Assembly: GCA_900467185.1 (NCBI GenBank)
Contig: UBPA01000005.1
Span: forward strand, 1 to 64,000
DNA: 64,000 bases
DNA from: Hyphomicrobiales bacterium
GTDB taxonomy: Bacteria > Pseudomonadota > Alphaproteobacteria > Rhizobiales > Rhizobiaceae
Direction: 5' to 3'
The notes under the pieces: generated by a model
The model's input: only the letters and a program-made list of their open reading frames with translations
Database searches by the model: none
What the model was told of the DNA's origin: nothing
Part shown: positions 8,741-11,376 of the stretch, in pieces
Layout: every line of letters starts with the position of its first letter
Position numbering within the stretch: position 1 is the first letter of the stretch
Made by a program: the position numbers and the translations under genes

Positions 8741-10090
8741 ATGACCAGAAACCTCCTCCCCGTCGCGGCCCTTCTCCTTGGAACGCTGTTCCTGTTTCTC
8801 GGAAACGGCCTTCACAGCCTGCTCCTGCCGATGCGCGGCACCACGGAAGGCTATTCGGCCACGCTGCTCGGCCTGCTCGGTACGTCCTGGGCGAGCGGCT
8901 TCGTGCTCGGCTGCCTGACGGCGCCGGCGATCGTGCGGCGCGCGGGCCATATCCGCGCCTTCAGCATCTTTGCGGCCATCCTCGCCATCGTCGCGCTGAT
9001 GACCGGCATCCATGTCGATCCCGTCTGGTGGGTGGTCCTGCGCGCCTTCACCGGCTTCTGCACCGCCGGTACATCGATGATCATCGAGAGCTGGCTGAAC
9101 GAGCGCGCCACGAATGAGAGCCGGGGGGCGATCTTCTCGCTCTACATCGCCATCACCCTCTTCGGCGTGGTGGCCGGCCAGATGATCGTGCCCTTCGGCG
9201 ACACCAACACGGCCGTGCTCTTCATGGTCTGCGGCATCGTCTATTGCGTGGCCATGCTGCCGACCCTGATGTCGACCGCGGTCTCGCCCCAGCCGCTGAA
9301 GCAGGTTCGCCTAGATCTCGCCGGCCTCTACCGCAACTCCCCCGTCTCGTTCCTCGGCATCCTCATGGTCGGCATCGCCAACGGCGCCTATGGCACGCTC
9401 GCCGCCGTCTTCGGGCGCCAGGCCGGCCTGCCGGATGCGGATGTCGCCGTCATGGTCAGCACCGTGATCTTTCTGGGCGCGATCATGCAGTTTCCGGCCG
9501 GCCGCCTCTCCGACCGGATGGACCGCCGCTACGTGCTCGCCGGCATCTCGGCCGTCGCCGCGCTGGCGGGGCTGCTGATCTTCCTGTTCGAGCCGGCGGG
9601 CAAGGTGTCGCTGCTGATCATGGTCGGCCTTTACGGCGCCATGTCGAACGCGCTCTACCCGATCGCCGTATCCCATGCCAACGACTTCGCGGCGCCCGAG
9701 GATTTCGTAAAAGTCTCCGGCGGCCTGCTGCTGCTCTACGGCATCGGCACGATCATCGGCCCGACCGTGGGCGGCCCGGTCATGACGATGATGGGCCCCT
9801 ATGCGCTCTTCATGATCACCGCCTGTGCCCACATCATCGTCGCCGCCTATGCCCTCTTCCGCAGCCGCCGCCGCGCCGCCGTTCCCGTCTCGCAACGCGA
9901 CCCCTTCCCGGCCACCATGTCGAACGGGCCGCTGATGGCGACGCCCGAAAGTCTGCAGATGTCGCCGCGCGCAGCACAGGCGACGCCGGCCGACCCGTCA
10001 CCGGCAGAGGCCGGCGAACCGGATGTCGCGGCGGAAACCGTGGTCCGGGAGGACACCGGCGACCGGGAGGACCCGGCACGCACGCTGTGA
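8741..10090 (+). CDS. MFS transporter (YcaD-like)
   Basis: The protein has 449 residues and about twelve hydrophobic segments, starting with MTRNLLPVAALLLGTLFLFLG. The cytoplasmic loop between segments 8 and 9 carries GRLSDRMDRRYV, the second copy of the MFS motif A. LNERATNESRG follows segment 4. It resembles the YcaD-like subfamily of inner-membrane transporters, whose substrates are mostly unknown. The last 65 residues are Pro, Ala and Glu rich and look disordered, longer than is usual in the family. GGAG lies 8-11 nt upstream of the ATG. Function beyond transport cannot be inferred. Confidence 0.85.
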   Translation: MTRNLLPVAALLLGTLFLFLGNGLHSLLLPMRGTTEGYSATLLGLLGTSWASGFVLGCLTAPAIVRRAGHIRAFSIFAAILAIVALMTGIHVDPVWWVVLRAFTGFCTAGTSMIIESWLNERATNESRGAIFSLYIAITLFGVVAGQMIVPFGDTNTAVLFMVCGIVYCVAMLPTLMSTAVSPQPLKQVRLDLAGLYRNSPVSFLGILMVGIANGAYGTLAAVFGRQAGLPDADVAVMVSTVIFLGAIMQFPAGRLSDRMDRRYVLAGISAVAALAGLLIFLFEPAGKVSLLIMVGLYGAMSNALYPIAVSHANDFAAPEDFVKVSGGLLLLYGIGTIIGPTVGGPVMTMMGPYALFMITACAHIIVAAYALFRSRRRAAVPVSQRDPFPATMSNGPLMATPESLQMSPRAAQATPADPSPAEAGEPDVAAETVVREDTGDREDPARTL

Positions 10091-10198
10091 GCGCGCAACA
10101 GGCCGCCCGAATCGCACCCGAGCGTCGCGCCGTTGAAAGATGAACGAAACACTAAGCTTCCGGAAAATGTTTCAAATCACGATGGGAACACTATGTTT

Positions 10199-10213
10199 TT
10201 AACCGGATGTTAA
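10199..10213. promoter_or_regulatory. CtrA box 1 (TTAA-N7-TTAA)
   Basis: TTAA at 10199-10202 and TTAA at 10210-10213 are separated by 7 nt (CCGGATG), a perfect full-site match to the alphaproteobacterial CtrA consensus. A TATACA -10 candidate lies at 10225-10230, which places the box centre about 31 nt upstream of a start near 10237, as in CtrA-activated promoters. Confidence 0.6.
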
Positions 10214-10236
10214 GCATTCCGGTTTATACATCATCC

Positions 10237-10333
10237 CATCCAGTTCGCTCTGGACTCAGACATTTCACCATCGGCGAATGCTCTGATTTTCTCCCTGTTT
10301 TACCTTGAGAGCCGCTTTTGCGGCTCTTTTTTT
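10237..10333 (+). ncRNA. Candidate small RNA with intrinsic terminator
   Basis: No convincing ORF covers this stretch, yet it ends in a textbook terminator: AGAGCCGC (10308-10315), loop TTTT, GCGGCTCT (10320-10327), then T residues to 10333. Upstream are a TATACA -10 candidate and a full CtrA box. The predicted transcript is about 95 nt, and the segment before the terminator hairpin (TTTTCTCCCTGTTTT) is single-stranded and pyrimidine-rich, as in anti-ribosome-binding-site sRNAs. The stretch could instead be only the trailer of the MFS transcript. The start position is predicted, not observed. Confidence 0.5.
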
Positions 10334-10379
10334 GCCTTAATGCGGCCGCGAGCGGGGCGTAATCACAGAAGTGTGGATG

Positions 10380-10394
10380 TTAACCCTTTCTTAA
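10380..10394. promoter_or_regulatory. CtrA box 2 upstream of rcdA
   Basis: TTAA at 10380-10383 and TTAA at 10391-10394 flank CCCTTTC, giving a second perfect TTAA-N7-TTAA site 124 nt before the rcdA ATG and 181 bp from box 1. Confidence 0.6.
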
Positions 10395-10517
10395 GAATAG
10401 ACTTGCGTGAAATGCGCTATGAGACCATTCTTCACCTTGAGAAGAGCGGCGTTAGAAACTTTTTATCGACCCGCCCGTTACCTGACTGAGTGAATGCGTC
10501 TAACCAGGGAATGAACC

Positions 10518-11036
10518 ATGTCCGAACGCGGATTGAACACCGTCAGTTTTGCAGGCCACGCCGCAGCATCGGCACAGTTCAAGGCGCTCTACGCTGAGGG
10601 CATGGGTCTGGTCGAGGAAACCGCAAGCTACCTCGACGGTCACGGTCGTGCGGCCTCCAAGGTTCTGCCGCGCATGGCATCGGTTCTCTACGCCGCGGAA
10701 TCGATGCGTCTCACCACGCGCCTGATGCAGATGGCCTCCTGGCTGCTTCTTCAGCGCGCCGTCAACAATGGCGAGATGACCCGCGATCAGGTGCTGTCGG
10801 AAAAGAACAAGGTCCGTCTCGACAGCTTCAACGTCGATCGCACGGCACCCGGCTGGTCCGACCTTCCCGAAGGCTTCCGCGACCTCATTGACCGCTCGCT
10901 CCGCCTCCAGAACCGGGTCGCCCTGCTCGACCGTGAAATCTACCGCCCCCAGGAAGCCGGCAATTTCGTGCCCGACAACCAGAACGGCGTGAAGGCCCAG
11001 CTGAACCTGCTGCAGACGGCATTCGGCGCGAGCTGA
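10518..11036 (+). CDS. rcdA: RcdA/DUF1465 family: adaptor for CtrA proteolysis
   Basis: The protein has 172 residues, predicted all-helical, with the DUF1465 pattern: FAGHAAASAQFKALYAEGM near the N-terminus, VLYAAESMRLTTRLMQMASWLLLQRAV in the middle and LLDREIY towards the C-terminus. In Caulobacter this family is RcdA, an adaptor that brings the cell-cycle regulator CtrA to ClpXP. RcdA is also studied in Sinorhizobium. Assignment as a functional orthologue is inference from family membership, supported by two perfect CtrA boxes upstream. That arrangement would allow a feedback loop in which CtrA controls its own degradation factor. The start ATG 10518 follows CAGGGAATG-type spacing. Confidence 0.8.
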   Translation: MSERGLNTVSFAGHAAASAQFKALYAEGMGLVEETASYLDGHGRAASKVLPRMASVLYAAESMRLTTRLMQMASWLLLQRAVNNGEMTRDQVLSEKNKVRLDSFNVDRTAPGWSDLPEGFRDLIDRSLRLQNRVALLDREIYRPQEAGNFVPDNQNGVKAQLNLLQTAFGAS

Positions 11037-11087: not shown

Positions 11088-11150
11088 CGTGTCTGGGTGA
11101 TCGGGTGATGTCGCATTCTGCGGGATGCCCGCAACGATAATGGTTGGGGC

Positions 11151-11335
11151 AGCCCCTCATCCGGCTGCCGCCACCTTCTCCCCGCAGGCGGGGAGAAGGG
11201 ACTGTGCCGTGGGCGTCTCGGTCTCATAATCGGCAGAGTTTGCGAGGAGGAGGTGTCTGTGTAACGTCGCACCGGCGCCCCACGTCCCTTCGCCCCGCGC
11301 GCGGGGAGAAGGTGCCGGCAGGCGGATGAGGGGCT
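11151..11335. repeat. RIME-like palindromic repeat, copy 1
   Basis: The terminal arms 11151-11185 and 11301-11335 are inverted repeats of 35 bp with only two mismatches, beginning AGCCCCTCATCCG. Each arm also contains or abuts a smaller hairpin (CTCCCCGC with GCGGGGAG). This is the structure of the Rhizobium-specific intergenic mosaic elements. Two further, more diverged copies occur at 14939-15078 and 37098-37247. Confidence 0.8.
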
Positions 11336-11376
11336 GGCGCACCCAGAGGCCTCTCTCAAAATGACCCCGGCAAACG

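Follow-up and report, generated by a model that had tools for sequence, protein, structure and literature searches.

The rcdA gene serves the destruction of CtrA, the master switch of the bacterial cell cycle. In S. meliloti rcdA is essential and its promoter was among those bound by CtrA in ChIP-seq, the passages cited not specifying which box was bound, and yet CtrA depletion left rcdA without a significant change by qPCR and with lacZ fusions (PMC4433202). CtrA motifs upstream of rcdA have already been predicted (PMC2877005, PMC3616915, PMC10469942), and for agrobacteria the sections cited give rcdA more than one transcription start site (TSS) in each of the three lineages examined there, with predicted CtrA sites upstream (PMC10469942).

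Two described RNAs come closest to the one considered here. BjrC1505 (RF02356), reportedly first found in Bradyrhizobium japonicum, appears in the literature that we searched as a list entry, and RF02356 does not appear there at all. SmelC671 occupies positions 2986421–2986520 of Rm1021 (100 nt; PMC2873474), and its family model, according to the part cited, ranks with the most widely spread ones and has a terminator, while its microsynteny is extensive (PMC3927594). A table in a 2020 review gives expression of SmelC671 in nodule zone II only and leaves its sigma-factor motif blank, as it does for EcpR1 and GspR (PMC7143759); since EcpR1 has a sigma-70 promoter and yet a blank motif entry, the blank for SmelC671 says little. 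No report of a link between the BjrC1505/SmelC671 RNA and CtrA was found in the literature searched. The RNA and the CtrA motifs upstream of rcdA are each already known, and what appears new against that literature is that the conserved box would belong to the RNA. We consider it likely that positions 10199–10333 of the window (the whole 64-kb stretch of DNA that we analysed) are a CtrA-activated gene for a trans-acting sRNA, which ends at its own terminator upstream of a separately transcribed rcdA, which would put this known RNA directly under the control of the cell-cycle switch.

A predicted BjrC1505-type RNA between an MFS gene and rcdA

The intergenic region holds two boxes, the predicted RNA and the predicted rcdA promoter (Table 1). 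An earlier note, made from the letters of the window alone, had described two perfect TTAA-N7-TTAA boxes, a ~95-nt RNA with a terminator, and rcdA. Of these, rcdA is confirmed by its DUF1465 match, the boxes are the only two in the window (mean of 100 shuffles 0.00) and are both conserved in relatives, and the length of the RNA stands; the RNA itself is supported by its fold, its covariation and its homology to known transcripts. Beyond rcdA, in the gap before rpmE (11150–11340), the eye picks out two apparent inverted copies of one GC-rich block (CCTCATCCG..CGGGGAGAAGG), perhaps a dispersed intergenic repeat.

Table 1. Features of the MFS–rcdA region, in window coordinates.
Feature	Position	Strand	Basis
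MFS transporter gene	8741..10090	+	PF07690, E 1e-29; upstream of the intergenic region
CtrA box 1, TTAACCGGATGTTAA	10199..10213	+	exact match; predicted to sit at −35 of the sRNA promoter, centred near −31
-10-like TATACA of the sRNA promoter	10225..10230	+	sequence; putative assignment; AT-rich block at the same distance kept in 83 listed named loci
sRNA, ~96 nt, BjrC1505/SmelC671 homologue	10238..10333	+	RF02356 and R1 matches; ends predicted
Stem-loop 1 (ATCCAG..CTGGAC)	10238..10255	+	folding and pair covariation
Stem-loop 2	10256..10286	+	folding and covariation; sequence swapped between clades, pairing retained
Unpaired linker TTTTCTCCCTGTTTTACCTT, anti-Shine-Dalgarno-like core CUCCCUGU	10287..10306	+	CTCCCTGT: every base >=90% conserved, n=69
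Intrinsic terminator of the sRNA	10307..10333	+	terminator scan (stem 10307–10328, then T run); conserved
CtrA box 2, TTAACCCTTTCTTAA	10380..10394	+	exact match; 5′ of the rcdA promoter, predicted centre about −52
rcdA promoter: −35 CTTGCG 10402–10407, N18, −10 CATTCT 10426–10431	10402..10431	+	predicted; positional conservation
rcdA (DUF1465)	10518..11036	+	PF07323, E 8e-59

A folding energy of −30.4 kcal/mol (z −4.19) was computed for the 97 nt that begin at 10240, and none of 200 shuffles was as stable. The terminator-like stem and T run came from a scan of 701 nt in which 0.9 such sites are expected by chance, so that the scan match alone is no evidence of a terminator; the same scan gave no E. 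coli-type sigma-70 promoter. No Rfam family reached its cut-off in the window. The RNA does match RF02356 over the full model (1–140 of 140, at 10193–10333), the sole match in its genome, with 36 bits where the gathering cut-off is 50. The RF02356 consensus opens with a CtrA-box-like stretch, UUuAC-N6-AUUaa, and the published model therefore seems to take in part of the promoter.

A covariance model (R1) built from 19 sequences of other clades, with none from the window's own clade, recovered all 21 of the window-clade sources given, including the window (10232–10334, 42.6 bits, E 7.4e-8, again the sole match in its genome) and S. meliloti 4H41. In the helices 92.4% of cells are paired, and both sides have changed in 11 of 21 pairs, which 1 of 500 shuffles reaches. 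The covariation score of 0.258 compares with 0.155 for the shuffles (0 of 500 as high) and also exceeds that of six slid versions, a control biased in favour of the structure because the structure was derived from the tested sequences. Stem-loop 2 is the clearest compensatory case, with GAGTGG/CCACTC, GAGTGAC/GTCATTC, CAGAGCGAC/GTTGCTTTG and GACGGA/TCCGTC next to TCAGAC/GTCTGA in the window clade, while the linker CTCCCTGT and the terminator are strongly conserved across 69 aligned RNAs. This set combines 39 of 41 Rhizobiaceae loci with 30 loci from the order, the two left out being L122, in which no terminator was found, and L125, which is unrelated. Alignment A1 holds 18 of 20 window-clade sequences and no count rests on it; alignment A2 holds 19 of 32 sequences, some trimmed at the 5′ end. 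By these comparisons the RNA is a divergent homologue of BjrC1505, a member of an ancient and widely conserved family. In its 5′ part lies GACTC (10253–10257), which we take to be a CcrM-type GANTC site; GANTC is found there in 73 of 119 listed named loci (27 after one shuffle) and in 28 of the wider set of 69.

RF02356 matches were found in 126 of 150 Hyphomicrobiales genomes, 107 of them above the cut-off, and in none of 14 control genomes, Caulobacter vibrioides included; among 289 genomes drawn from the whole class there are 30 with a match, three of which belong to Hyphomicrobiales. DUF1465 is present in 136 of the 150. Of the 121 genomes with both, 118 have the RNA immediately 5′ of rcdA and in the same orientation, the end of the RNA and the DUF1465 match being a median of 221 nt apart; the other three are draft assemblies with RNA and rcdA on different contigs, which may be assembly breakage. 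Adjacency to rcdA also marks 29 of the best 30 RF02356 loci (89 to 132.8 bits), and in six of the seven loci examined from the other 27 class-level matches the RNA precedes rcdA. An exact 25-nt RNA motif, searched in named genomes, gave at least 120 loci, and among those listed rcdA follows the RNA in all 109 with room, 11 more ending at the locus edge. For the 15 genomes with rcdA but no RF02356 match, R1 finds the RNA in six and the motif filter alone passes three (L033, L035, L046); four gave no RNA match, and two could not be judged (one masked, one at a contig end).

Close linkage on one strand would also suit a different reading, in which box 1 is a remote rcdA site and the RNA a long, prematurely terminated rcdA 5′ leader or attenuator. 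The several rcdA TSSs described for all three agrobacterial lineages (PMC10469942) lend this some support, but they are also consistent with one of the starts being that of the RNA. Against it stand the conserved terminator, the conserved promoter that rcdA has of its own in Rhizobiaceae, the three drafts with separate contigs (subject to the same caution about breakage) and five genomes without detected DUF1465 (G017, G131, G120, G121, G050) that retain the RNA together with its box. G017 has two RNA copies, giving six such loci (L283–L288), of which three (the G017 pair and G131) have an exact box and the remaining three a box with a single mismatch. Three other extra RNA copies were seen, one (G024) with a box carrying one mismatch and two (G097, G049) with none. 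Taken together, we judge the leader reading quite improbable and retain an independent sRNA gene as the preferred one.

Conservation of the CtrA boxes and promoter anatomy

Box 1, the box of the RNA, is exact in 45 of the 69 aligned RNAs and has one mismatch in 22. Its half-site columns are conserved and six of its seven spacer columns much less so, the first spacer position being C in 55 of 69. Among 119 listed named loci it is exact in 78, with one mismatch in 30 and two in 11 (the pattern read backwards gave 0 exact and 14 with one mismatch), and where the listed named loci of the window clade extend far enough to show box 2, it is exact in all 109 (backward control 3 of 109). Across the whole 5.04-Mb genome there are 40 TTAA-N7-TTAA places, compared with nine for the backward pattern. 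So many boxes could mean that the TTAA repeats are simply part of AT-rich promoters and not used by CtrA, but against this stand the conserved half-sites around a much less conserved spacer, the lower backward controls, and the CtrA binding recorded at the S. meliloti rcdA promoter in the ChIP-seq data cited (PMC4433202). We therefore hold this explanation to be very unlikely indeed and treat both boxes as candidate CtrA sites.

Outside Rhizobiaceae the two boxes part company. Within that family, 35 of 38 loci carry the box of the RNA with no more than one mismatch (control 3 of 38), and 35 of 38 also have an exact rcdA box (control 1 of 38). Elsewhere in the order the box of the RNA is found within one mismatch in 58 of 59 loci (backward control 11 of 59), whereas between RNA and rcdA a box within one mismatch occurs in 9 of 59 against 7 of 59 for the control, which is chance level. 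The motif filter behind this comparison took 28 of the 87 loci from the order and 5 of the 43 from Rhizobiaceae out of the count, and R1 found the RNA in 16 of 23 filtered-out order loci and in none of four from Rhizobiaceae (L122, L125, L130, L131); two of the Rhizobiaceae loci share a genus. Counting exact matches only, 34 of the 87 order loci have a box (backward control 8 of 87), a weaker signal outside Rhizobiaceae, and the 43 Rhizobiaceae loci divide into 29 with two boxes, 12 with one and two with none. Because a box is conserved order-wide at the RNA and kept in genomes without a detected rcdA, while the rcdA box is at chance outside Rhizobiaceae, the ancestral CtrA box, as read from these alignments, is the one that goes with the RNA, and the rcdA box is a Rhizobiaceae feature. 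The two boxes of the earlier note are both conserved, but unequally so. A CtrA link to the RNA, also raised there, is strongly indicated, with TTAA-N7-TTAA conserved at the predicted promoter position.

When the 83 listed named window-clade loci are anchored on box 1, what is conserved is the box itself, TTAAGC and an AT-rich block ~13 nt on, and no other conserved −35 element is seen before the RNA in these loci. The −10-like block and stem-loop 1 place the probable start of the RNA at ~10236–10238, so that box 1 does precede it, as had been noted, but by some 24 nt rather than about 31. Anchored on box 2, 110 of 112 listed named loci have CTTG at +22 from the box start, and 110 of 112 have CAT at +46, that is, 18 nt after CTTGCG. 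Loci with the box in Rhizobiaceae at large have [CG]TTG at +22 in 39 of 40 and CAT at +46 in 30 of 40. This pattern suggests that rcdA has a separate promoter, CTTGCG/CATNNT, and that CtrA would take the −35 position at the promoter of the RNA and sit near −52 at that of rcdA. Just 5′ of box 2, TGTGG (10372–10376) is present in all 112 listed named window-clade loci; in a comparison within Rhizobiaceae it occurs in 20 of 20 loci of the window clade but in only 1 of 20 others, and another protein may bind there. An overlap of box 2 with a DnaA box was considered and dropped, as the DnaA match has two mismatches in all 112.

The sign of the regulation at box 1 bears on the model. CtrA can both activate and repress, and a box in the −35 position is one from which it could in principle repress, so that the RNA would appear only as CtrA falls; a dual role of CtrA has been speculated on for gcrA in the section cited (PMC3616915). 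The window clade, however, offers no independent conserved −35 for CtrA to block, and we regard repression from box 1 as unlikely and activation as the favoured reading.

Possible targets of the linker

The linker raised the question of pairing with rcdA itself. CAGGGA, the complement of UCCCUG in the RNA, is present in the rcdA leader of 13 of 20 window-clade loci (shuffled mean 0.4), in none of 19 clade-2 Rhizobiaceae loci and in 2 of 56 other loci (shuffled mean 2.1). Shortened to CAGGG, the motif occurs in eight of the 19 clade-2 leaders (shuffled mean 3.1, largest 9). Among the listed named window-clade loci, CAGGGA is found in 74 of 100 rcdA leaders compared with 10 of 360 other leaders; 92 of the 100 contain CAGG, which in 85 of these lies 9–11 nt before the ATG. 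The median duplex energy is −14.8 kcal/mol for rcdA leaders. For 291 other leaders it is −9.8 kcal/mol, and 11% of them pair equally well. These leader counts come from related sequences with rough start-codon calls, and from leaders listed for 100 of 120 named loci. The window itself is unremarkable, with a six-pair core at −10.6 that ranks 22nd of 34. Pairing with the rcdA ribosome-binding site is accordingly rejected as a general mechanism, since clade 2 lacks CAGGGA and the rest of the order shows it no more often than shuffles do, and the linkage of RNA and rcdA is, by the same token, probably older than any such pairing. From its leaders, rcdA may be a candidate target in the window clade only. 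The rcdA ribosome-binding site there is mostly CAGG(G)A, and GGAG appears in 0 of 100 listed rcdA leaders versus 125 of 360 other leaders.

The complement AACAGGGAGGCG was found in 53 of 71 genomes. Of 30 complement loci 27 were viewed, and 16 were the opposite strand of the RNA itself (14 labelled, two by eye); no recurrent mRNA target was seen in this shallow check, in which the 11 others were viewed only for a nearby open frame.

Proposed model and comparison with known RNAs

In the model that we propose, phosphorylated CtrA would bind box 1, stand in for the missing −35 and recruit RNA polymerase, and the ~96-nt RNA so made would end at its own terminator. The unpaired CUCCCUGUU between stem-loop 2 and the terminator could then base-pair with ribosome-binding sites on mRNAs encoded elsewhere and reduce their translation, Hfq presumably sitting on the U tail. 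rcdA would be transcribed from its separate sigma-70-type promoter, which in Rhizobiaceae the second CtrA box at about −52 may tune rather than switch. In Rhizobium-Sinorhizobium, where the rcdA leader often carries CAGGGA, we speculate that the RNA might also hold back RcdA while CtrA is high. The S. meliloti ChIP binding without an rcdA response (PMC4433202) and the listing of SmelC671 for nodule zone II alone (PMC7143759) speak for the model. Counting against it are the single mismatch in box 1 in about a third of sequences and the RF02356 score under its cut-off.

This arrangement could account for CtrA being bound at the rcdA promoter with no response of rcdA in S. meliloti, and so offers a possible answer to a published puzzle. 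The earlier idea that CtrA drives its own degradation factor is weakened by the same data: the rcdA promoter is indeed bound, but rcdA was unchanged on CtrA depletion in the S. meliloti experiments cited (PMC4433202). A fuller version is tentative, and in our estimate rather doubtful: the sRNA, one of the most widely conserved in Hyphomicrobiales, would be a direct CtrA-dependent output, the rcdA ChIP peak would largely be that of the RNA, and in Rhizobium-Sinorhizobium the RNA would pair with the rcdA ribosome-binding site (UCCCUG/CAGGGA) in an incoherent loop. If that were true, CtrA would act both on rcdA and on a translational brake upon rcdA. More broadly, the analysis proposes a likely regulator for a conserved sRNA that is an orphan in function, lays out its promoter and sets it in the context of the cell cycle. 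Predictions of CtrA sites that are restricted to the regions before protein-coding genes, such as the one cited here (PMC3616915), would credit the box of the RNA to rcdA.

Several known RNAs resemble the window RNA in part. CcnA of Caulobacter is, in the account available, likewise a non-coding RNA in the CtrA circuit. EcpR1 (SmelC291), which the earlier note had raised as a possible identity, is also a conserved rhizobial sRNA tied to the cell cycle, but it lies between divK-pleD and rpmG and has a sigma-70 promoter (PMC4414408), whereas the window RNA sits between the MFS gene and rcdA; by this comparison of loci EcpR1 is rejected. GspR (SmelC775), a rhizobial sRNA in the CtrA network, is rejected because its locus is between SMc03844 and SMc03845; it is 143–144 nt long (PMC5928217) and is probably confined to Sinorhizobium according to the review section cited (PMC7143759). 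MmgR/AbcR (RF00519) shares a CUCCCU segment before the terminator but differs in its 5′ half and its locus, and scores 25.1 bits where the cut-off is 41.

The window RNA belongs instead with BjrC1505 and SmelC671. In S. meliloti 4H41 the locus is laid out alike, again with two exact boxes, and the RNA predicted there has 100 nt when counted from ATCCGG through the last T. In this strain 6S RNA, the RNA and mmgR agree in order and strands with Rm1021 SmelC671, but the distances to 6S RNA and mmgR disagree (about 12.4 vs 14.2 kb and 77 vs 60 kb), which makes the identity with SmelC671 very probable rather than proven. BjrC1505 has the order of stems, the linker and the terminator of the window RNA, matched over 140 positions, and differs in stem-loop 2, which the window copy has replaced, without the CUCCUGU loop; the window copy scores 36 bits. 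SmelC671/Sm84 (SMc06875) and ReC71 of R. etli are described, in the parts cited, with the same 100 nt, wide spread, terminator and microsynteny (PMC3927594, PMC2873474, PMC7143759), and by length, distribution and gene order, rather than by sequence, the window RNA is very probably the counterpart of SmelC671/Sm84.
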